37,109 bases of DNA from Phenylobacterium parvum (GCA_029977805.1 JAPOKE010000009.1:1-37109); one strand, 5' to 3'; shown: positions 4,446-25,334, counted from the stretch's first letter. Program-made: numbers and translations. Notes: generated by a model not told the origin, from the letters alone.

Positions 4446-6716
4446 TCAGGCCGTCTTCAGGGCCGCCAGCACCGCGTCGGGCCGGATCGGGAGGCGACGC
4501 ACCCGGGCTCCGACCGCGTTGAAGATGGCGTTGCCGATCGCCGGCGCCACCACGGTGGTGGCCGGCTCGCCCAGGCCCACCGGCGCGTGGTCGCTGTCCA
4601 CGAAGTCGATGGCCAGGTCGGGCACGTCGCTCATCCTCAGGGGCGTGTAGGCGCCCAGATTGGTCTCCTGGATGCGTCCGTCCCGGAAGGTGGCGCCCTC
4701 GTGGAGGGCGAGGCTCAGGCCCCAGAGGGCGGCCCCTTCCATCTGCGCCCGGGCGCCGTCCGGATGGATGATGGCCCCGGCGTCCACGACGATGTGGAGC
4801 TTCTCGACCTTGACCTCGCCCGTCCGGCGGTCGACCCGGACCCGGGCGGCGCAGGCCGTCCAGGTCGGCATGTCCCGCTCCTGGCCAAAGGTGGTGGCGA
4901 GGCCCAGCCCGACGTCCGCCGGCAGCTTGCCGCCCCAGCCTGCGGCCTTGGCGACCCGCGACAGGACGGCGGCCTGGCGGCGGGCGCCGCCCACCGCGTT
5001 CGGCGCCGAACCGGCGTTGCGGCCCGCGCCATCCAGCATCTTCAGGCGGAAGGCCAGGGGGTCCTGGCCGGTGGCGTGGGCCGCCTCGTCCATGGCGCTT
5101 TCCACGGCCCAGTTGGTCCAGCCCGGCCCCACCGAGCGCAGCCAGCCCGGGCGGAAGGCCCGGTTCGCCAGGTCGTTGGACAGGGCCCGAACCCGGTGGG
5201 CGCCGACATTGTACCAGTGGTTGGCGCCGTTGATCGCAAAGGGGTCGAAGGGCCGGTCATTCGCGCCCTTGGGCATGAAGAAGGGCGCCATGACCTCGGT
5301 GGGCCAGCCTGCGGCGGCGGCGTGGTCCATGGCCGTGACCCGGCCGCCCTCGCCGAAGGCCATCCTCACCCTCTGGACGGAGGGCGAGCGGAAGCTGTCG
5401 AACAGGGTGTCGTCCTCGCGGGTGAAGACCAGCTTGACCGGCTTGCCCAGGGCCTTGGCCGCCAGGGCCGCCGGCACGGCGTAGTCGCCGTTCAGCCGCC
5501 GCCCGAAGCCGCCGCCGAGCAGGTAGGTCTTGAGGACAATGCTTGCTTCCGGCCGGCCGAGGGCCTTGGCCAGGGTCGGCAGGATCAGGGACTGCCACTG
5601 GTTGCCCGTGTGGATCTCGAAGACGCCGTTGCGCTCGAAGGCCAGGGCGTTCAGCGGCTCCATCTGGAAGTGCAGGGCGGCGTCGGTGGCGTACTCCGCC
5701 TCGATCTTCGACTTCGCTGCGGCGAAGGCCGCCTCCACCCCCGGGTCATTGACCACCAGGGAGCCCGCGCCGGCGTCGGCGATCAGGGTCCGCGCCCGGG
5801 CCTCGAGGTCGGCGTCGGAGACCTTCGCCGTCGGACCGTTCTCCCAGGTCACCTTCAGGGCCCGCACGGCGCGATCCGCCGCCACGAAGCTGTCGCCGAG
5901 GGCCAGGACCCAGCCCGGGACCGTGCCAGAGGGATCGTCGAGGACCAGGTGCCCGCGATAGCCGGGAACACCCTTCGCTCCGGACTCGTCCACCGAGACG
6001 ACCTTGGACTCGTTGCGCGTCGGCGGCAGGACCGGCCGGGCGTAGACCATGCCGGCGATCTTCGCGTCGATGCCGAACATGGCCGAGCCATTGGTCTTGG
6101 CGGGGATGTCGCGGGCCTGGAACTCGCCGCCGATCAGCCGCCGCTCGGCCGCCGGCTTGATGGGCAGGGCGGCCAGCTCCTTGTCCGTGAAGCCGGTGCG
6201 CAGGCCGCCCTTCGCGACGATGTCGCCGTAGCTGACCGAACGCTTGCCGGCCAGGACCGCACCCTTGCGGGCGATGCAGGACGAGGCCGGGACGCCGAGG
6301 ATCTTCGCGCCGGCCTCGATGAGGGCGATCCGCCCGGCGGCGCCGGCCTGGCTCAGGAAGGGATAGCTCTGCCAGACCGACCAGGACCCGCCGGTGACCA
6401 TCAGGCCCCACTTGGGGTCGGTGTCGACGTGGACGATGCGGACCTTGTCCCAGTCCGCCTCGAGCTCATCGGCGACGATGCGGGCCAGGGCCGTCCCGAC
6501 GTGCTGGCCCATCTCGGCCCGGACGACGTTGACGGTCACGATCCCCTGGGCGTCGATGGCGTACCAGAGGCTGGGCTCGAAGGCCGCCGCCCCGGAATAG
6601 GGCCCGAGGGACACCGCAGCCTCGGCGGCGGCGGCGAAGCCGAAGGCCGCGCCCGCGGCCCCGGCGGCGATCAGGAACCGGCGGCGGCCGGGATCGGGGA
6701 TCAGGGGGCGGTTCAT
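4446..6716 (-). CDS. iorB: Molybdopterin-binding large subunit of an aldehyde/isoquinoline-type oxidoreductase
   Basis: 756 residues. The N-terminus [20 protein letters not shown] is a twin-arginine signal, so the enzyme works in the periplasm. The molybdenum cofactor domains follow: [39 protein letters not shown] and, near the C-terminus, [20 protein letters not shown], which carries the expected catalytic Glu. This is the xanthine oxidase family, type with a single MoCo subunit plus a 2Fe-2S subunit (IorB of isoquinoline 1-oxidoreductase, also many aldehyde dehydrogenases). The substrate cannot be read from sequence. ATG 6716 overlaps the small-subunit stop as ATGA, so the two are translationally coupled. 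The ORF-track start at 7034 runs through the small-subunit gene and is wrong. No cytochrome subunit or MoCo-insertion chaperone (XdhC type) is adjacent. Confidence 0.88.
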
Positions 6717-15454: not shown

Positions 15455-16522
15455 ATGAGCGAGACCCTGGCCCACATCGACGGCCGGCCGATCGGTCCGG
15501 GCCACCCGCCCTATGTCGTCGCCGAGATGTCCGGCAACCACAATGGCGACATCCGGAGGGCCCTCGACCTGATCTCGGCCGCGGCCGGGGCGGGCGCCGA
15601 TGCCGTCAAGATCCAGACCTACACCGCAGACACCATCACCCTCGACCATGACGGCCCGGGCTTCCGGATCACGGGCGGCCTCTGGGACGGCCGCCGGCTG
15701 CACGAGCTCTACGCCGAGGCCCACACCCCCTGGGACTGGCACGCCCGGATGTTCGAGCACGCCCGGACGGTGGGGATCACCCTCTTTTCCTCGCCCTTCG
15801 ACGCCACCGCCGTGGACCTGCTGGAGCGCCTGGGCGCCCCGGCCTACAAGATCGCCTCCTTCGAGCTGGTCGACCTGCCCCTGATCCGGCGCTGCGCCGC
15901 CACCGGAAAGCCCCTGGTCATGTCGACGGGCATGGCTGCGCCGGAGGAGATCGCCGAGGCGGTGGAGGCCGCCCGGGGCGCCGGCGCCCGGGACCTTGTC
16001 GTCCTTCACTGCACCAGCGCCTATCCCGCGCCCATGTCGAGCATGAACCTCGCCACCCTGCCGGACATGGCCCGGCGGTTCGGCGTCCTGCCCGGCCTCT
16101 CCGACCACACCCTGGGGACGGCGGCCTCGGTCGCCGCGGTCGCCCTGGGCGCGGTCTTCATCGAGAAGCACTTCACCCTCAGCCGCGCCGAGGGCGGGGT
16201 CGACTCCGCCTTCTCCCTGGAACCCGCCGAACTGGCGGAGCTGGTCAGCAGCTGCCGGGGCGCCTGGGAGGCCCTGGGCCAGGTGGCCTACGGGCCCGGC
16301 GAGGCCGAGGCGGGGAACGCCGGCATGCGCCGCTCGCTCTATGTCAGCGCCCCGGTGGGGAAGGGGGAGGCCTTCACGCCGGCCAATGTCCGCTCTGTGC
16401 GGCCTGGCCATGGCCTGGCGCCGAAGCATCTCGACACGGTGCTTGGACGCCGGGCGACCCGGGACATCCCCTTCGGCGCGCCGCTGGACTGGACCATGGT
16501 CGAGGGCGGCGGCCCGGCTTGA
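15455..16522 (+). CDS. pseI: Pseudaminic acid synthase (NeuB family)
   Basis: 355 residues. The NeuB TIM barrel (about 20-265) has YVVAEMSGNHNGD, AVKIQTYTADTITLD, TPWDWHARMFEHAR, FSSPFDATAVDLLE, YKIASFELVDLPLI, STGMAAPEEI and LSDHTLGTAASVAAVALGA. These are the PseI rather than sialic acid synthase forms. A C-terminal antifreeze-like SAF domain holds NVRSVRPGHGLAPKHLD. It condenses phosphoenolpyruvate with 2,4-diacetamido-2,4,6-trideoxy-altrose. ATG 15455 follows GGAGG by 5 bases; the ORF-track extension to 15194 lies in the MBL gene. The other Pse genes (pseB, pseC, pseH, pseG) are not in the window. In Caulobacterales such sugars decorate flagellins (known context, not shown here). Confidence 0.88.
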   Translation: MSETLAHIDGRPIGPGHPPYVVAEMSGNHNGDIRRALDLISAAAGAGADAVKIQTYTADTITLDHDGPGFRITGGLWDGRRLHELYAEAHTPWDWHARMFEHARTVGITLFSSPFDATAVDLLERLGAPAYKIASFELVDLPLIRRCAATGKPLVMSTGMAAPEEIAEAVEAARGAGARDLVVLHCTSAYPAPMSSMNLATLPDMARRFGVLPGLSDHTLGTAASVAAVALGAVFIEKHFTLSRAEGGVDSAFSLEPAELAELVSSCRGAWEALGQVAYGPGEAEAGNAGMRRSLYVSAPVGKGEAFTPANVRSVRPGHGLAPKHLDTVLGRRATRDIPFGAPLDWTMVEGGGPA

Positions 16523-16528
16523 GCCCGG

Positions 16529-17224
16529 TCAGGCGTCGGCTTCCCGCCGGGAGAAGGGCAGGGCGAGGACATCGTCCGAGCTGAAGGCCGGGTTGGCGGG
16601 GTAGAGCGCCGCATAGACCCGCTCCACGAAGTCGAAGTCCGCCGGCAGGTCCACGGTCCACCGGAACGCGCTGAGGTCCGGCGACCGGACAAGCGCGCCC
16701 AGGCGAAAGGGCGTTCCCGGGCCATAGATCCAGGGCGTCACATGCTCGCGGTCGTAGGGCGAGGTCGCCTCGGCCCCGGCCCGCCGGAGCGCCCCGGCGG
16801 TGAAGACCTCCACGTCCAGGCCCCGGGGATAGGTGCGGACCTGCCCGTTCGAGGCGTAGTCGAAGCCCCCCTCCCGCCGCAGGGCGACGCAGGCGTCGAT
16901 GACCCCGGGATCAGCCAGGGGGCAGTCAGCGGTCAGCCGCACGATGTCGCCCCGGAGCTCCAGCTGGTCGGCCGCCAGCACGAACCGTCCCAGGACGTCG
17001 TCCAGCGGCCCGCGCACGGTCTCGAGGCCCGCCTGGACAAGGGTCTCCGCGAGGATGTCGTCGGAGGGATCGCGGCTGGTCGCCACGACGATGCGGTCGA
17101 GCTCGCGGCAACGCCTCAGGCGCTCGACCTGCCGCAGGATCATCGGCTGTCCCAGCAGGGGCCGCAGGACCTTGCCGGGCAGGCGGCTGGAGCTCATCCG
17201 CGCCTGAAGAATCGCCGTGGCCAT
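16529..17224 (-). CDS. SpsF/CMP-sugar type nucleotidyltransferase (possible PseF)
   Basis: 231 residues. The nucleotidyltransferase signature ILQARMSSSRLPGKVL is at the N-terminus and DIVRLTADCPLADPGVID holds the metal-binding Asp region; TSPYDREHVTPWIY and FRWTVDLPADFDFVE complete the SpsF/NeuA-like pattern. It should attach CMP (or another NMP) to a sugar acid. Its stop lies 6 bases from the stop of pseI, tail to tail, so it is a good candidate for the cytidylyltransferase step of the same pathway (PseF), although the SpsF branch has no fixed substrate. GGGAGG lies 5 bases before ATG 17224. Confidence 0.8.
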   Translation of the reverse strand: MATAILQARMSSSRLPGKVLRPLLGQPMILRQVERLRRCRELDRIVVATSRDPSDDILAETLVQAGLETVRGPLDDVLGRFVLAADQLELRGDIVRLTADCPLADPGVIDACVALRREGGFDYASNGQVRTYPRGLDVEVFTAGALRRAGAEATSPYDREHVTPWIYGPGTPFRLGALVRSPDLSAFRWTVDLPADFDFVERVYAALYPANPAFSSDDVLALPFSRREADA

Positions 17225-17344: not shown

Positions 17345-18010
17345 ATGCTGGTGCTCCTGGGCGTGCTCCTGGTCGTGGCGGGCTTCGCCGTCGGCCTGAA
17401 CCCCCTGCTCGTCGTCCTGGCCTCGGCCCTCGCCACCGGGCTGGCCGCGGGCCTTTCCCCCCTCGAGGTGCTGGCCGCCTTCGGCAAGGCGTTCAACGAG
17501 AACCGCTATGTCAGCGCCGCCTGGCTGATCCTGCCGGTCATCGGCGTGCTGGAGCGGTCGGGCCTGCAGGAGGCCGCGCGGGGCCTGATCGGCCGCCTCA
17601 GGGGCGTGACCTTCGCCCGGCTGATGCTGGCCTACCTCTTCTTCCGCCAGGCCACCGCCGCCCTCGGCCTGACCTCCATCGCCGGCCAGACCCAGACCAT
17701 CCGGCCGATCATCGCCCCCATGGCCGAGGCCGCCCGGGCGGCGGAGACCGGCGCCCCGGCCCTCGAGCCCGCGGAGACCCAGAAGGTCAGGGCCTTCGCC
17801 GCCGGCACGGACAACATCGGCCTCTTCTTCGGCGAGGACATCTTCCTGGCCATCGGCTCGATCCTGCTGATGGTCGGGTTCCTCGACCAGAACGGGATCA
17901 CGGTGGAGCCCCTGCACCTGTCTGTCTGGGCCATACCGACCGCCATCGCCGCCTTCCTCGTCCATGGCGCGCGCATCCTCCTGTTCGGCCGCCGGAGGAC
18001 GCGCCCGTGA
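17345..18010 (+). CDS. DUF969 membrane protein (putative 5-oxoproline transporter subunit)
   Basis: 221 residues with about five or six hydrophobic segments. Landmarks are GLNPLLVVLASALATGLAAG, AAWLILPVIGVLERSGLQEAA, LGLTSIAGQTQTIRP and GTDNIGLFFGEDIFLAIGSI. This matches DUF969, which always travels with DUF979 and has been proposed from gene neighbourhood as a 5-oxoproline transporter pair. Nothing here proves the substrate, and no pxpABC or pyroglutamyl peptidase gene is in the window. ATG 17345 is preceded by a purine-rich GAAGGGGAAGGGA; the ORF-track start at 16742 crosses the opposite-strand gene. The stop overlaps the GTG of the DUF979 gene. Confidence 0.85.
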   Translation: MLVLLGVLLVVAGFAVGLNPLLVVLASALATGLAAGLSPLEVLAAFGKAFNENRYVSAAWLILPVIGVLERSGLQEAARGLIGRLRGVTFARLMLAYLFFRQATAALGLTSIAGQTQTIRPIIAPMAEAARAAETGAPALEPAETQKVRAFAAGTDNIGLFFGEDIFLAIGSILLMVGFLDQNGITVEPLHLSVWAIPTAIAAFLVHGARILLFGRRRTRP

Positions 18011-18966
18011 TCGGCCTGTCCCAGGTCTACGCCCTGGCGGGCCTCGTCTTCGCCGGCTTCGCGGTGATGAGCCTGCGCGACGCCGCCAATCCGCGCCGGC
18101 GCCGCAACGCCCTCTTCTGGGGGCTCTTCGCCCTGTCCTTCCTCGCAGGCGACCACCTGGGGGACCTCGGCAACGGCGTGCTCGTCCTCGCCATGGCCCT
18201 GGCCGCGGCCCTTGGCCTGGGGCGCAGCGGGACGTCGGCGGACGATGCGGAGGCGCGGGCGGCATCGGCCCGCACCCATGGCCTGCGCCTCTTCCTTCCC
18301 GCCCTCCTGGTCCCGGTCATCGTGTTGGCCGGCAGCCTCGGCGTGCGCCATGGCGGGGCGATAGCGGCGGCCCTGGTGGACCCGAAGCAGGCGACCCTCG
18401 TCTCCCTCAGCCTCGCGGCCCTGGTGGTCGCGGCCCTGTCGGTGCGGCTCTTCCGGCAGCCCGTCCTCGCGCCCCTGACGGAGGGGCTGCGCCTCGCCGA
18501 CACGGTGGGCTGGATGGCCCTGCTGCCGCAGATGCTGGCGGCCCTGGGCGCCGTCTTCGCCCTCGCCGGGGTCGGGACCGTGGTCGGCGAGACGGTGACC
18601 CGGGTCTTCCCCATGGACACCCGGCTGGCGGCGGTGGCGGTCTACTGCCTGGGCATGGCGGGCTTCACCGTGCTGATGGGCAACGCCTTCGCCGCCTTCC
18701 CCGTGATGACCGCGGGCGTGGCCCTGCCGGTCCTGGTCAAGGTCTATGGCGGCGACCCCGCCGCCATCTGCGCCATCGGCATGCTCTCCGGCTTCTGCGG
18801 CACCCTGCTGACGCCCCTGGCGGCCAATTTCAACCTGGCGCCCGCCGCCCTGCTTGACCTGGACGACCGTTTCGCCGTCATCCGGGCGCAGGCGCCGACC
18901 GCCGTGGTCCTCCTGCTCGTCAATACGGTCCTGATGCATGTCCTCGCCTTCCCGGCTCACCCCTGA
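18007..18966 (+). CDS. DUF979 membrane protein (putative 5-oxoproline transporter subunit)
   Basis: 319 residues with about eight hydrophobic segments. Landmarks are YALAGLVFAGFAVMSLRDA, FLAGDHLGDLGNGVLVLAM, MGNAFAAFPVMTAGVALPVL and MLSGFCGTLLTPLAANFNLAP, the last with the small-residue-rich re-entrant look of secondary transporters. It is the partner of DUF969. GTG 18007 overlaps TGA 18008-18010 as GTGA, so translation is coupled; the ORF-track start at 17236 is an out-of-gene extension. The C-terminus overlaps the DUF2891 gene by 29 bases. Confidence 0.85.
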   Translation: MIGLSQVYALAGLVFAGFAVMSLRDAANPRRRRNALFWGLFALSFLAGDHLGDLGNGVLVLAMALAAALGLGRSGTSADDAEARAASARTHGLRLFLPALLVPVIVLAGSLGVRHGGAIAAALVDPKQATLVSLSLAALVVAALSVRLFRQPVLAPLTEGLRLADTVGWMALLPQMLAALGAVFALAGVGTVVGETVTRVFPMDTRLAAVAVYCLGMAGFTVLMGNAFAAFPVMTAGVALPVLVKVYGGDPAAICAIGMLSGFCGTLLTPLAANFNLAPAALLDLDDRFAVIRAQAPTAVVLLLVNTVLMHVLAFPAHP

Positions 18967-19954
18967 GATCGCCGCCGGCTTCGCCCGGATCGCCCTCGGG
19001 CACGTCACCCGGCCCTGGCCCTACAAGCTGGACCAGGTGCTCGCCGGCGAGGACGACCTGGCGACGCCCCGCCGCCTGCATCCCATCTTCTTCGGCAGCT
19101 TCGACTGGCATTCCTGCGTCCACGGATACTGGACCCTTGCGGCGGTGCGCCGCCGCTTCCCCGACCATCCCGTCGCCGCCGAGATCGACGCCCGCTTCAC
19201 CGCGGCCTTCACGGAAGACGCCGTGGAGGGCGAGCGCGCCTTCCTGCGCCGCCCCACGGCCCGGGGCTTCGAACGACCCTATGGCTGGGCCTGGCTCCTC
19301 AAGCTGCAGGCCGAGCTCCTCCGGCTCGAGGGTCCCTGGGCGATGCGCCTCGCCCCCCTGGCCGCCGACTTCGCGGACCGGTTCCGGGCCCACCTGCCCC
19401 TCGCCGCCTATCCCGTCCGCACGGGGGTGCATTCCTCCACGGCCTTCGCCCTCGCCCTGGCCCTGGACTACGCCGAGGCGGCCGGCGACCGCGAACTCGG
19501 AGACCTGCTCTGCGCCAAGGCCCTGTCCTGGTACGCCCGGGACCGGGACTGCCAGGCCTGGGAGCCCTCCGGCGAGGACTTCCTGTCGCCCGCCCTGATG
19601 GAGGCCGAGTGCCTTCGCCGGGTGCTTCCCCGCGACGACTTCCGCGCCTGGTTCGCCGGCTTCCTGCCGCGGGCCGCCGAGGGCGCGCCCGCCAGCCTCT
19701 TCACCCCCGCCAGCGTCAGCGACCGCAGCGACGGCAAGATCGCCCACCTCGACGGCCTCAACCTGTCGAGGGCCTGGTGCTGGCGGAACATCGCCGCCGC
19801 CCATGCCCCCGGGGATCCCGTCGCGGAGGCCGCCCGCGCCGCCGCCGGGATCCACCTCGAGGCGAGCCTGCCGCACGTGGCCGGCGACTACATGGGCGAG
19901 CACTGGCTGGCCAGCTTCGCCCTGCTGGCCCTCACCGCGGGAGAGGCGGCGTGA
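18938..19954 (+). CDS. DUF2891 family protein
   Basis: 338 residues, soluble, no signal peptide. Conserved-looking blocks are HPIFFGSFDWHSCVHGYW, PTARGFERPYGWAWLLKL, TGVHSSTAFAL, AWEPSGEDFLSPALMEAE and DRSDGKIAHLDGLNLSRAW. The many Trp, His and acidic residues and the all-helical look suggest an alpha/alpha-barrel hydrolase, but function is unknown. DUF2891 genes are often beside DUF969/DUF979 (from memory). ATG 18938 lies inside the end of the DUF979 gene (29-base overlap); starting MSSPSRLTPEIAAGFARIAL agrees with the expected family N-terminus. The stop overlaps the sulfotransferase GTG. Confidence 0.85.
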   Translation: MSSPSRLTPEIAAGFARIALGHVTRPWPYKLDQVLAGEDDLATPRRLHPIFFGSFDWHSCVHGYWTLAAVRRRFPDHPVAAEIDARFTAAFTEDAVEGERAFLRRPTARGFERPYGWAWLLKLQAELLRLEGPWAMRLAPLAADFADRFRAHLPLAAYPVRTGVHSSTAFALALALDYAEAAGDRELGDLLCAKALSWYARDRDCQAWEPSGEDFLSPALMEAECLRRVLPRDDFRAWFAGFLPRAAEGAPASLFTPASVSDRSDGKIAHLDGLNLSRAWCWRNIAAAHAPGDPVAEAARAAAGIHLEASLPHVAGDYMGEHWLASFALLALTAGEAA

Positions 19955-21960
19955 CCGAGGCCAGCCTCGACGCCGCGATCCGCCAGGGCCTGGGCCTCCT
20001 GGCGGCCCGGCCGGACCTCGCCGAGGCGCAGGCGCAGGAGATCCTCGCGGTCGTCCCCGGCCACCCGGCGGGCCTCCTCATGCGCGGCGCCGCCCGCCGC
20101 AGGATGGGCCGGTCCACCGAGGCCCTCGGGGACCTGGCGCCCCTGGCTGCGTCCCAGCCGACCTGGCCGCCCGCCCACCTGGAGCTTGGACTGGCCCGGG
20201 GCGAAGCCGGTGATCCCCGCGGGGCGGTGGAGGCCCTGTCCCGCGCGGTGGCCCTGGACGCCGGCCTGGTCGAGGGCTGGACCGCGCTGGGCGTCCAGCA
20301 CCGCCTCCTGGGACATGTCGCCGCCGCAGAGCGCGCCGAGGCCCGCGCCCTCAGCGCCGCAACCCGCGATCCGGGCCTTCTGGAGGCGGGCGCGGCCCTC
20401 AACGAGGGCCGGCTGGCGGTGGCCGAACACCTCCTGCGGGACCGGCTGAAGGCCCGGCCGGACGACCCGCCGGCCCTGCGCATGCTGGCGGAGACCGCCA
20501 CCCGGCTCGGCCGCTACGAGGACGCCGAGGCCCTTCTCAGGCGCTGCCTGGAGCTGACGCCAGGCTTCATCCCCGCCCGCCACAACCTCGCCGTGGCCCT
20601 CTACCGCCAGACCCGGGCCGCCGAGGCCCTCGCCGAGACGGAGGTCCTCCTGCGGGCCGATCCCCGGCATCCGGGCTACCGCAACCTCCAGGCCGCCGCC
20701 CTCGGCCAGCTGGGGGAGTACCCCCGCGCCATCGCGGTGTTCGAGAGCCTGCTCGCCGACTTCCCCGTCCAGCCCAAGGGCTGGATGAGCTATGGCCATG
20801 CGCTCAAGACGGTGGGGCGGCAGGACGACGCCGTCGCCGCCTACCGGCGCGCCATCGGCCTCGCCCCCGGCCTTGGCGAGGCCTGGTGGAGCCTGGCCAA
20901 CCTCAAGACCTTCCGCTTCGCCCCGGCTGACCTGGACGCCATGCGTCGGGCCCTCGCCGGCGACGGACTGTCAGACGAGGACCGCTTCCACCTCGACTTC
21001 GCCCTCGGCAAGGCCCTGGAGGACGCCGGCGAGGACGAGGCCGCCTTCGCCGCCTACAGCCGCGGGAACGCCCTGCGCCGGATGGGCCTGGACTATGACG
21101 CGGAGGAGACCCACCGCCACCTGGTGCGCTCGCGCGCCCTCTTCACCCCCGGGTTCTGGGCGGCGCGGGAAGGGTGGGGCTGTCCCTCGCCCGACCCGGT
21201 CTTCATCCTGGGCCTGCCCCGGGCCGGCTCGACCCTGGTCGAGCAGATCCTCGCCAGCCATCCCCTCGTGGAGGGGACGATGGAGCTGCCCGACATGCCG
21301 GCCATCGCCAAGCGGCTGGGCGGCCGCACCCGGCGGGACCAGGACTCGGCCTATCCCGACATCCTCGAGGGCCTGGACGCCGACGCCTGCCGGGCCCTCG
21401 GCGAAGAATACCTTGCCCGCACCGCGCCCCAGAGGAAGACCGGCCGGCCCTTCTTCATCGACAAGATGCCCAACAACTTCGCCCATGTCGGCCTGATCCG
21501 GCTGATCCTTCCCCGGGCCAAGATCATCGATGCGCGGCGCCATCCCCTGGGATGCTGCTTCTCGGGCTTCAAGCAGCACTTCGCCCGCGGCCAGGCCTTC
21601 ACCTACGACCTCACGGACCTCGGCCGGTACTATGCCGACTATGTCGACCTCATGGCGCACTTCGACCGGGTCCTGCCCGGCGCGGTCCACCGGGTGATCT
21701 ACGAGCGCATGGTGGCGGACCCCGAGGCGGAGGTCCGGGCCCTCCTGGCCTATTGCGGGCTCGACTTCGACCCGGCGTGCCTGAGGTTCTACGAGAACGA
21801 CCGCGCCGTCCGCACCGCCAGTTCCGAGCAGGTCCGGCGGCCCATCTTCACCGAGGGGCTCGACCAGTGGCGGCGCTTCGAGCCCTGGCTCGGCCCGCTC
21901 AAGGCGGCGCTGGGACCGGCGCTGGAGGCCTATCCTGAGGCGCCTGCGCCACAGGAATGA
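19951..21960 (+). CDS. TPR-repeat sulfotransferase
   Basis: 669 residues from GTG 19951, which overlaps the previous TGA as GTGA. Residues 1 to about 400 are tandem TPR helices (repeats around PGHPAGLLMRGAARRRMGR, GRYEDAEALLRRCLELTPGF, GRQDDAVAAYRRAIGLAPGL). The C-terminal part (about 415-660) is a sulfotransferase with the PAPS 5-prime phosphosulfate loop GLPRAGSTLVEQIL and the 3-prime phosphate site DARRHPLGCCFSGF. It moves sulfate from PAPS to an unknown acceptor, with the TPR part probably binding a protein or oligosaccharide. No signal peptide. This architecture next to a TonB-dependent receptor is common in Caulobacterales and Sphingomonadales (from memory). The ORF-track start at 19609 is inside the DUF2891 gene. 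Confidence 0.88.
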   Translation: MTEASLDAAIRQGLGLLAARPDLAEAQAQEILAVVPGHPAGLLMRGAARRRMGRSTEALGDLAPLAASQPTWPPAHLELGLARGEAGDPRGAVEALSRAVALDAGLVEGWTALGVQHRLLGHVAAAERAEARALSAATRDPGLLEAGAALNEGRLAVAEHLLRDRLKARPDDPPALRMLAETATRLGRYEDAEALLRRCLELTPGFIPARHNLAVALYRQTRAAEALAETEVLLRADPRHPGYRNLQAAALGQLGEYPRAIAVFESLLADFPVQPKGWMSYGHALKTVGRQDDAVAAYRRAIGLAPGLGEAWWSLANLKTFRFAPADLDAMRRALAGDGLSDEDRFHLDFALGKALEDAGEDEAAFAAYSRGNALRRMGLDYDAEETHRHLVRSRALFTPGFWAAREGWGCPSPDPVFILGLPRAGSTLVEQILASHPLVEGTMELPDMPAIAKRLGGRTRRDQDSAYPDILEGLDADACRALGEEYLARTAPQRKTGRPFFIDKMPNNFAHVGLIRLILPRAKIIDARRHPLGCCFSGFKQHFARGQAFTYDLTDLGRYYADYVDLMAHFDRVLPGAVHRVIYERMVADPEAEVRALLAYCGLDFDPACLRFYENDRAVRTASSEQVRRPIFTEGLDQWRRFEPWLGPLKAALGPALEAYPEAPAPQE

Positions 21961-21980: not shown

Positions 21981-22009
21981 TTGACAGCCCGTGCCCGCGG
22001 GCCGGTTAT
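21981..22009 (+). promoter_or_regulatory. Possible promoter of the TonB-dependent receptor
   Basis: TTGACA at 21981-21986, a 17-base spacer and GGTTAT at 22004-22009. The -35 is perfect, the -10 weak (3 of 6). The spacer holds the palindrome GCCCGCGGGC (21993-22002), which could be a repressor site. It would give a leader of about 45 bases before ATG 22060. Confidence 0.35.
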
Positions 22010-22059
22010 CGCCGGATAGAGATTCGCGCCCGCCTGCCCTTCCTGACCTGGATTCCAAT

Positions 22060-24402
22060 ATGCTCCGCAAGACGTCCCCGGCCCGCCTGACCGCCATGCT
22101 CCTCGCCTCCACCATGCTCGCCGGCGTGTCTTCCGCCCGCGCGGCGGAGGAGGCCGCCTCGGTCGAGGAGCTGGTGGTGACGGCCCAGAAGCGGGCGGAG
22201 AACATCCAGGACGTGCCGGTGGCGGTGACGGCCCTGTCCACCCGCAAGCTCGAGGAGCTGCAGGTCCAGGGCTTCGACGACTATGTGAAGTTCCTGCCCA
22301 GCGTCGCCTACCAGAGCTCGGCGCCCGGCTTCTCCACGGTCTACATGCGCGGCGTCGCCTCCGGCGGGGATGGCAACCACTCCGGCTCCATGCCCAGCGT
22401 CGGGACCTACCTCGACGAGCAGCCCATCACCTCCATCGGCGGGGCGCTCGACCTGCATGTCTATGACGTCGCCCGGGTCGAGGCCCTCGCGGGCCCGCAG
22501 GGCACCCTCTACGGCGCCAGCTCGCAGGCCGGCACGATCAAGATCGTCACCAACCCGGCCGACCCGTCGGGCTTCTCGGCGGCCTACGACGTCGGCGTGA
22601 ACACTGTCAGCGACGGCGGCCCCGGCTATTCCCTCGAGGGCCTGGTCAACATCCCCCTGAACGACCGCATGGCGGTCCGCCTCGTCGCCTGGAACACCCA
22701 TGACGGCGGCTACATCGACAATGTGAAGGGCACGCGCACCTATCCGACCTCGGGCGTGACCATCAACAACAACGCCCTGGCCAAGGACGACTACAACGAG
22801 GTCGACACCTGGGGCGTGCGCATCGCGGGCCTGGTCGACCTGAACGAGAGCTGGACGATCCGGCCCACCTTCATGAGCCAGGACACCAAGGCCGACGGCA
22901 TCTTCGCCTACGACCGGACCCAGGGTCCGATGAAGGTCACCCACTATCTTCCGGAATCCGGGCACGACCGGTGGCACCAGGCTGCCCTGGCGGTCGAGGG
23001 CCGGATCGCCGACTTCGACCTCGTCGTCTCCTCGGCCTACATGGACCGCCGGATCGACACCCAGTCCGACTACACGGACTATTCCTTCTTCTACGACACC
23101 CTGTTCGGCTCCGGCGCCTACATCACGGACGCTGCGGGCAATGTGATCGACCCGACCCAGCGGATCACCGGGCGCGACCACTTCACCCGGGTGTCCAACG
23201 AAATCCGCCTGTCCTCGCCCCAGGACCAGCGCGTCCGCTTCGTGGTCGGCGCCTTCCAGCAGAGGCAGACCCACTTCATCGAGCAGAACTACCAGATCAA
23301 GGGGATCGGACCGGACATCACCGTCACCGGCTGGCCAGACACCCTCTGGCTGACCGAGCAGATGCGCATCGACCGGGACTACGCCGCCTTCGGCGAGGCC
23401 TACATCGACCTGACGGAGAAGCTGACCCTCACCCTTGGGATGCGCGCCTTCAAGACCGACAACTCCCTCGAGGGCTTCTTCGGCTTCAGCGACGGCTATT
23501 CCTCGCGCACCGGCGAGGCGGCCTGCTTCGCCCCGGGCAAGGTCGGCCGCGCGCCCTGCACCAACCTCGACAAGCGGGTGAAGGAGACCGGCCAGATCTA
23601 CAAGGTCAACCTCAACTACAAGTTGAGCGACGACAAGCTGGTCTACGCCACCTATTCCCAGGGCTTCCGCCCGGGCGGCATCAACCGGCGCTCGACCCTC
23701 GCGCCCTACGAGGCCGACTACCTCTACAACTACGAGCTGGGCTGGAAGACGGAGTGGGCCGACAACTCGATCCGGTGGAACGGCGCTGTCTTCTTCGAGA
23801 CCTGGAAGGACTTCCAGTTCTCCTTCCTGGGCGCCAACTCCTTCACCCAGATCCTCAACGCCGGCCAGGCGGAGATCAAGGGCGCGGAGACGGAGGTCAG
23901 CTGGGCTGCGCCCGTCCAGGGCCTCACCGTCACCGGCGGGGCCTCCTACACCGACGCCTACCTGACCGAGCCCTACTGCGGGACCACGGACGCCCAGGGA
24001 AAGCCGATCAAGAACTGTGCGACGCCCCAGGCGCCGTCCGGTACGGCCCTGCCCGTCACGCCCAAGCTCAAGGCCAACGCCCGGGTGCGCTACGAGTTCG
24101 ACCTGTCGGGCTTCGACGCCCACGTCCAGGCGGTCGGGGTCTACCAGGGCGAGGCCTGGCCTGACCTGCGGCTCGAGGAGCGGGGCATACTGGGCAAGCA
24201 GGACGCCTTTGGTTCGGTCGACGTCGCGGCGGGACTCGCCCGGGGCAACTGGCGCGCCGAGCTGACCATCAGCAACCTCTTCGACGAAGTCGGCGACAAG
24301 TATCGCTACGCCCAGTGCACGCCCACGGTCTGCGGCGGGCGGACCTATTCCGTGCCGATCCGGCCGCGCACCATCGGGCTGAGCTTCGGCCAGAAGTTCT
24401 AG
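22060..24402 (+). CDS. TonB-dependent receptor
   Basis: 780 residues. The signal peptide (MLRKTSPARLTAMLLASTML, cut near SARA-AEEA) is followed by the TonB box region VEELVVTAQKRAENIQDVPV, the plug (QGFDDYVKFLPSVAY, GPQGTLYGASSQAGTIKIVT) and a 22-strand barrel ending in the usual C-terminal Phe (LSFGQKF). It takes up a substrate across the outer membrane using TonB energy. QKRAENIQDVPVAVTAL is the sphingomonad/caulobacter broad-family form, which gives no clue to the ligand. ATG 22060 is chosen because the signal peptide starts there; the ORF-track start at 21991 adds a proline/arginine-rich leader overlapping the likely promoter. No clear Shine-Dalgarno is seen. Confidence 0.92.
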   Translation: MLRKTSPARLTAMLLASTMLAGVSSARAAEEAASVEELVVTAQKRAENIQDVPVAVTALSTRKLEELQVQGFDDYVKFLPSVAYQSSAPGFSTVYMRGVASGGDGNHSGSMPSVGTYLDEQPITSIGGALDLHVYDVARVEALAGPQGTLYGASSQAGTIKIVTNPADPSGFSAAYDVGVNTVSDGGPGYSLEGLVNIPLNDRMAVRLVAWNTHDGGYIDNVKGTRTYPTSGVTINNNALAKDDYNEVDTWGVRIAGLVDLNESWTIRPTFMSQDTKADGIFAYDRTQGPMKVTHYLPESGHDRWHQAALAVEGRIADFDLVVSSAYMDRRIDTQSDYTDYSFFYDTLFGSGAYITDAAGNVIDPTQRITGRDHFTRVSNEIRLSSPQDQRVRFVVGAFQQRQTHFIEQNYQIKGIGPDITVTGWPDTLWLTEQMRIDRDYAAFGEAYIDLTEKLTLTLGMRAFKTDNSLEGFFGFSDGYSSRTGEAACFAPGKVGRAPCTNLDKRVKETGQIYKVNLNYKLSDDKLVYATYSQGFRPGGINRRSTLAPYEADYLYNYELGWKTEWADNSIRWNGAVFFETWKDFQFSFLGANSFTQILNAGQAEIKGAETEVSWAAPVQGLTVTGGASYTDAYLTEPYCGTTDAQGKPIKNCATPQAPSGTALPVTPKLKANARVRYEFDLSGFDAHVQAVGVYQGEAWPDLRLEERGILGKQDAFGSVDVAAGLARGNWRAELTISNLFDEVGDKYRYAQCTPTVCGGRTYSVPIRPRTIGLSFGQKF

Positions 24403-24407
24403 GGGCC

Positions 24408-25334
24408 GTGACGCAGGGAGGATCGCCGGAAGCGGCGGCCTTCGCCCTGCGCGAGGGCCGGCTCGTCATCCTTCCCACCGAGACCGTCTACGGTCTGGCG
24501 GCGGACGCGGGGAACCCGCGCGCCGTGGCCTCGGTCTACGCCGCGAAGGGCCGCCCCGCCTTCAATCCCCTGATCGCCCACGTCGCCGACATCGACGCCG
24601 CCCGCCGGATCGCGGTCTTCGGCCCTGATGCGGAGATCCTCGCGGCGGCCTTCTGGCCGGGTCCGCTGACCCTGGTCCTGCCTGTCCAGCCCGGCGGCGC
24701 GGTCTGCGACCTCGCCCGGGCGGGCCTGGACACGGTGGCGGTAAGGGTCCCGGCCCATCCCCTTGCCCGCGCCGTGCTCGTGGCCTTTGGCGGACCCGTG
24801 GCCGCACCGTCTGCCAACCGGTCGGGCCGGCCGAGCCCCACCACCTTCGCCGCCGCCTGCGAGGAGACCGGCGACGCCGCCGAGGTCGCCCTGGACGGCG
24901 GCCCCTGCGAGGTCGGGCTGGAGTCCACCGTCGTCGCCCTGCTCGACACGCCGCGCCTCCTGCGCCCCGGCCGGGTGACCCGGGACCAGGTCGAGGCCCT
25001 GGTGGGGCCCCTCGCCGAGGCGGAGGCCGACGCGCGCCGTTCCCCGGGGCGGCTCACCCGGCACTACGCCCCCGAGGCGCCGGTCCGGCTGGACGCCCGC
25101 GACCTCCGGTCGGGGGAGGTCTACCTCGCCTTTGGGGACGCACCCGGGGACCCCGGCGTTCTCAACCTCAGTCCCTCGGGCGACCTCGTCGAGGCCGCCG
25201 CCAACCTCTTCGCCTTCCTCCGCGAGGCTGACGCCCGGCGTCCCGCCGGCATCGCCGTCGCCCCCATCCCGCACGAGGGCCTTGGCGAGGCGATCAATGA
25301 CCGGCTCCGGAGGGCCGCCGGCGCCATCGGATGA
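24408..25334 (+). CDS. tsaC: L-threonylcarbamoyladenylate synthase (Sua5/TsaC)
   Basis: 308 residues, the long Sua5 form. The YrdC domain has LPTETVYGLAADA, VYAAKGRPAFNPLI, FWPGPLTLVLP, VAVRVPAHPLAR and APSANRSGRPSPT. The C-terminal Sua5 domain begins at SPGRLTRHYAPEAPV. It makes threonylcarbamoyl-AMP from Thr, bicarbonate and ATP for the t6A37 modification of ANN-decoding tRNAs. The start is GTG 24408, only 5 bases after the TonB receptor stop, with just AGGGG in front. An ATG at 24315 inside the receptor gene would add 31 non-family residues. Its expression may depend on read-through from the receptor gene. Confidence 0.92.
   Translation: MTQGGSPEAAAFALREGRLVILPTETVYGLAADAGNPRAVASVYAAKGRPAFNPLIAHVADIDAARRIAVFGPDAEILAAAFWPGPLTLVLPVQPGGAVCDLARAGLDTVAVRVPAHPLARAVLVAFGGPVAAPSANRSGRPSPTTFAAACEETGDAAEVALDGGPCEVGLESTVVALLDTPRLLRPGRVTRDQVEALVGPLAEAEADARRSPGRLTRHYAPEAPVRLDARDLRSGEVYLAFGDAPGDPGVLNLSPSGDLVEAAANLFAFLREADARRPAGIAVAPIPHEGLGEAINDRLRRAAGAIG

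Follow-up and report, generated by a model that had tools for sequence, protein, structure and literature searches.

The stretch of DNA analyzed here, called the window, is a 37,109-nucleotide contig (C259) of a Phenylobacterium parvum assembly (GCA_029977805.1, JAPOKE010000009.1) that totals 2.29 Mb in 259 contigs and is 86% complete. Within it, genes encoding two membrane proteins, DUF969 and DUF979, are followed on the same strand by genes encoding the soluble protein DUF2891, a tetratricopeptide repeat (TPR) protein with a sulfotransferase domain (the TPR-sulfotransferase, ST) and a TonB-dependent receptor (Table 1). DUF969 and DUF979 overlap by 4 bp (GTGA), DUF979 and DUF2891 by 29 bp, and DUF2891 and ST again by 4 bp (GTGA); 99 bp separate ST from the receptor gene. 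These overlaps and the receptor downstream were already reported in a preliminary description of this DNA, and coordinates, reading frames and Pfam assignments bear them out, while an NCBIfam search for the names DUF969, DUF979 and DUF2891 returned zero matches. The same description read the first four genes as one coupled chain. Overlap alone is weak evidence for a shared pathway, since 4-bp overlaps are common here: others occur in the window at 6713/6716, 11573/11576, 13417/13420, 28805/28808 and 29377/29380, and 33 of 139 same-strand neighbor pairs in 13 stretches gene-called alike overlap by exactly 4 bp, according to the home-made codon-usage gene caller that underlies these statistics.

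Table 1. Features of the locus, in window coordinates.
Feature	Coordinates	Strand	Basis
DUF969 membrane protein, proposed 5-oxoproline transporter subunit	17345..18010	+	Pfam PF06149, E=3.5e-81; hydrophobic segments
DUF979 membrane protein, partner subunit	18007..18966	+	Pfam PF06166, E=4.3e-107; 9 transmembrane-like segments
Soluble DUF2891 protein, all-alpha (alpha/alpha-barrel-like), homologous to Campylobacter jejuni Cj0554	18938..19954	+	Pfam PF11199, E=2.3e-129
TPR-Sulfotransfer_3 protein (ST), first gene of the ST-TonB pair	19951..21960	+	Pfam PF13469, E=3.5e-48, plus TPRs
Promoter-like TTGACA-17/18-GTTATC element before the TonB receptor gene	21981..22010	+	Sub-clade conservation
TonB-dependent receptor, constant neighbor of ST	22060..24402	+	Pfam plug and TonB barrel; pairing statistics
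Codons of the receptor motif D337-Y338-T-D-Y341, predicted surface loop	23068..23082	+	Clade alignment
tsaC-like gene (threonylcarbamoyl-AMP synthase), right flank	24408..25334	+	Family name by sequence reading

The run very probably consists of two independent units side by side: the DUF969-DUF979-DUF2891 triple (unit A) and the pair formed by ST and the TonB receptor (unit B). The boundary between them is visible in a sub-clade of 12 genomes, whose flanks were compared as far as contigs reach. All 12 share a left flank of KorAB-MBL-PseI-CTP transferase-DUF969-DUF979-DUF2891 and a right flank of TsaC-FAD oxidase-YaaA. ST and the receptor lie between DUF2891 and tsaC in five of these genomes. 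Neither is present in the other seven, where DUF2891 leads directly to tsaC, a housekeeping gene that it overlaps, abuts or is fused to. The chain members are thus not conserved together across relatives, and the earlier step from overlapping genes to a role for ST in a 5-oxoproline pathway does not survive a junction from which ST and the receptor are so often missing. Two of the pair-less genomes (G131 and G235) are rated 100% complete and have the junction in mid-contig, so the missing pair is not an assembly gap.

Traces of the pair remain in some of the genomes that lack it. Approximately 40 bp matching the 3' end of the receptor gene are kept at the junction of three of the seven (G325, G255 and G253), in each case above all 200 shuffles, which argues for repeated deletion of the pair from a locus that kept the DUF triple. 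Another frame of the G255 junction (L179) reads RTLGLSF, like receptor C-termini. DUF2891 and tsaC form a single open reading frame (ORF) in G325, G253 and G235 (L176, L177 and L178) and likewise, judged by open-frame length, in G255; this fusion is an accidental product of pair loss. In a tree built from the flanking proteins, sister genomes differ in whether they carry the pair: G262 has it and G235 lacks it, G096 has it and G332 lacks it, and the window genome (G000) has it and G289, a genus sibling whose DUF2891 is 94% identical to that of the window, lacks it. This alternation implies at least five losses if only losses are allowed, with some internal nodes weakly supported. In G267 and G250 the pair is also found near tsaC; DUF2891 is elsewhere in the genome in G267, and none was found in G250.

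The real partner of ST is the TonB receptor. Searches with ST and receptor profiles built here, at a proximity threshold of 3.5 kb, place a TonB receptor near ST in 41 of 42 cases in the genus, 20 of 20 in the rest of the order and 9 of 9 in the rest of the class, where close ST homologues are matches with E<=3.1e-130; overall, 70 of 71 close homologues have such a neighbor. A receptor lies near none of 11 remote TPR-STs and near 2 of 20 random loci, a control that may be somewhat low because the training set of the receptor profile consisted of paired receptors. Receptors at loci missed by the first search were confirmed independently by Pfam. When 120 genomes of the order were searched for the receptor first, all 24 best matches adjoined an ST match, and no orthologous receptor was found in two ST-less siblings that were searched. 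ST and receptor distances correlate as well (Mantel r 0.88, or 0.84 without the sub-clade). ST accompanies TonB receptors everywhere else, and its earlier assignment to one pathway with the rest of the chain is not supported. The ST-TonB unit is widespread in Alphaproteobacteria and apparently undescribed: no description of a TPR-ST and TonB receptor pair was found in the open full-text literature, subscription papers being mostly outside the scope of that search.

Several loci depart from the simple pair. In L205 (2145-8194) and L206 (5989-11960), a TonB receptor, a Sulfotransfer_2 gene, a further short gene and a TPR-ST occur in one run, the short gene of L205 encoding an Asp/Asn beta-hydroxylase; it is possible that these runs are a richer version of the pair. 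In L197 and L200, tandem TPR-STs adjoin a TonB receptor, and an aspartyl-protease-family gene is next in L197.

For unit A, the preliminary proposal that DUF969 and DUF979 form a 5-oxoproline transporter is strengthened by published work and by gene linkage, which also support DUF2891 as the usual third gene. All three families are adjacent and in module order in the window (Pfam) and its relatives. The cj0552-cj0553-cj0554 genes of C. jejuni encode DUF969, DUF979 and DUF2891 in the identical order, and a cj0552-4 mutant did not grow on 5-oxoproline in an experiment that its authors call preliminary (PMC12795558); unlike in the window, neither a sulfotransferase nor a TonB receptor is described at that locus. 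The AlphaFold2 (AF2) model of DUF2891 (pLDDT 92) closely resembles Cj0554 (PDB 8ieu/8iev), with a Foldseek TM-score of 0.92 to 8ieu at 42% identity; a literature search found no paper naming 8ieu. Reading the chemistry of DUF2891 from its fold neighbors was rejected, because besides Cj0554 there are just weak all-alpha matches (best E 0.045). A fused HyuA-HyuB ORF of approximately 1215 aa is present elsewhere in the window genome (G000:C232), and 16 of 80 database loci have such a fused gene close to the triple, many of them with the gene immediately preceding DUF969. Architecture and context suggest a 5-oxoprolinase-type enzyme with a putative substrate. PxpA (PF03746) was rejected as the 5-oxoprolinase, as none of the 10 genomes searched gave a match to it.

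By analogy with what has been published on these gene families, interpretation of the triple as a 5-oxoproline module is supported. The two membrane proteins would import 5-oxoproline (pyroglutamate), whose ring would then be opened to glutamate by a fused oxoprolinase-type enzyme with its gene elsewhere in the genome. The chemistry that we infer for DUF2891 is that this cytosolic helical-barrel protein would handle 5-oxoproline or a related cyclic amino acid. The pxpTABC genes of Corynebacterium glutamicum follow a similar logic, combining a transporter and a 5-oxoprolinase for the same substrate; however, PxpT is an APC-superfamily (NRAMP-like) transporter and the hydrolase is PxpABC (PMC13274462). 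In other Proteobacteria, DUF2891 also occurs without DUF969 and DUF979, adjoining aconitase X in L088 (7995-10708) and a bile-acid-symporter-like (SBF-like) transporter in L098 (7105-8999). These neighbors are compatible with small cyclic amino acids.

The ST protein combines an N-terminal TPR superhelix like that of O-GlcNAc transferase (OGT) with a C-terminal sulfotransferase domain of the type that uses 3'-phosphoadenosine-5'-phosphosulfate (PAPS; AF2 pLDDT 88). Its conserved PRAGST motif corresponds to the PAPS-binding P-R-x-G-S-T, and it is predicted to be cytosolic, having no transmembrane-like segment. An adenosine-5'-phosphosulfate (APS) kinase, for PAPS synthesis, is encoded in the window genome (G000:C241). 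As in eukaryotic OGT, the superhelix is fused to a transferase domain, but the catalytic domain is a sulfotransferase and not a glycosyltransferase. Since a whole-protein Foldseek search was dominated by TPR proteins, the sulfotransferase domain was searched alone by sequence. It matches 8w5z (E=7e-07) and TPST1/TPST2 chains (E ~0.003-0.006), with a polyketide sulfotransferase slightly better, and resembles polyketide and protein-tyrosine sulfotransferases about equally. RaxST of Xanthomonas is reportedly a bacterial protein-tyrosine sulfotransferase, with RaxX as its peptide. If ST acts as proposed below, it would likewise be a cytosolic PAPS-dependent enzyme that sulfates a tyrosine of an exported polypeptide, but RaxST is said to have a small peptide as its partner together with a type I exporter, whereas ST has a long TPR domain and a TonB receptor partner. 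In G249 (P. aquaticum) there are four TPR-ST matches and no match to APS kinase (PF01583).

The receptors that accompany ST include a clade of 71 with a shared motif, 70 of which have a close ST within 1.5 kb and one at 1.8 kb. The pattern [DE]Y[STA]xY is present at the motif position in all 71 members and in none of 36 unpaired receptors, which belong to other clades. D337, Y338 and Y341 are 99-100% conserved in a clade whose median pairwise identity is 37%. The position of the motif, immediately ahead of a strand that leads to a short periplasmic turn, predicts that it is exposed at the cell surface. Paired receptors bearing it are found in the window and in loci L153-L241 and L298-L317.

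The module boundaries, the ST-TonB pairing and the losses of the pair are shown by the genome comparisons, and they bear on two other accounts of the locus. One is that five species gained the pair here and seven never lost it. Its patchy presence among close relatives would fit such gains, but the pair is in the same place in the outgroups G249, G331 and G330, which favors loss, and neither the receptor relics nor the in-frame DUF2891-tsaC fusions would be expected from them; gain is highly improbable. The other account is a single pathway for a compound derived from a peptide or amide, which would enter via the TonB receptor and the DUF969/DUF979 transporter and be sulfated on the way. Besides the overlapping genes, it can appeal to adjacency beyond this strain, to which the preliminary description had allowed that the arrangement might be confined: DUF2891 is present in 74 of 101 Phenylobacterium genomes, and a close ST adjoins it in 8 of the 74 (G000, G321, G262, G096, G328, G249, G331 and G330). 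Two further points weigh against full independence of the units. DUF2891 and a close ST co-occur above expectation in the genus (47 genomes with both, 3 with ST only, 27 with DUF2891 only and 24 with neither; odds ratio 14), which could reflect a real, looser functional link or shared ancestry; across the order there is no excess (p = 0.25). In addition, a TTGACA element between DUF2891 and ST, present in three outgroup loci, is absent from the window lineage, where no separate promoter for ST is visible and the gene probably relies on read-through from unit A. Such read-through may be transcriptional hitch-hiking and not pathway membership. However, ST and the receptor were lost together repeatedly while seven of 12 close relatives retained the triple, and ST pairs with TonB receptors in dozens of unrelated contexts. 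No ST near DUF2891 was found outside the genus in the order-level scan, in which match coordinates were compared by hand, and only one other Phenylobacterium among the 80 database loci (L032, the G249 locus) has ST directly downstream; in an alphaproteobacterial metagenome-assembled genome (L070), two TPR-STs precede the triple at a distance of more than 1 kb. The elements between DUF2891 and ST in the outgroups also speak against one pathway, as does the promoter-like element upstream of the receptor, conserved as TTGACA-17/18-GTTA(G/T) in the window and its four pair-bearing sub-clade siblings. A single pathway is thus very unlikely. Under the two-unit reading, unit B sits between unit A and tsaC in one Phenylobacterium lineage, genome compaction would have made their junction a 4-bp overlap, and unit B was later deleted several times with unit A untouched. 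A point against the substrate assigned to unit A is that the fused HyuA-HyuB protein also resembles N-methylhydantoinase and caprolactamase.

What ST sulfates is a separate matter. D-Y-x-x-Y appears to be the kind of site used by a tyrosine sulfotransferase, and its conservation is equally compatible with a receptor sulfated on tyrosine and with a ligand-binding loop. On the former model, ST would hold an extended polypeptide in its TPR superhelix and sulfate the tyrosines of the D-Y-x-x-Y surface loop of its partner receptor before export, setting what the receptor binds. This proposal is tentative and rather unlikely to be correct as it stands. All receptors with the motif fall in a single clade, so that motif and pairing do not count as separate events, and the motif is missing from approximately ten paired receptors that belong to other clades; a strict rule linking motif to pairing was rejected on these grounds. 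Alternatively, ST may sulfate a small exported or imported ligand (a peptide, a glycan or a siderophore-like compound) that the receptor recognizes through D-Y-x-x-Y as a binding loop, an explanation that opposes the sulfation step only and not the two-unit reading. When a loop motif of a receptor never varies, it is often a site of ligand contact. The resemblance of the ST domain to polyketide sulfotransferases fits this alternative, as do the ten motif-less paired receptors and the paralogous loci in which Sulfotransfer_2 and, in L205, the Asp/Asn hydroxylase occur beside the TonB receptor and TPR-ST. The OGT-like TPR array, however, points to a polypeptide acceptor, and neither a biosynthetic gene set nor a precursor peptide was noticed next to the pair, whose flanks were not searched systematically. 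A small ligand is a plausible substrate, if not quite a probable one.

The natural deletion series shows that genes can overlap without belonging to one pathway and corrects a natural misreading of this locus, and the comparison brings out a near-strict gene pair of TPR-ST and TonB receptor. If ST does sulfate its receptor, a new kind of modification would be added to those of outer-membrane proteins; because the motif is invariant, receptor sulfation is directly testable.

Just left of the chain (15455-17224), a pseudaminic-acid-synthase-like gene is convergent with a cytidylyltransferase gene. The two are present in most sub-clade loci; in G267 and G323, the interval from MBL to DUF969 showed neither.

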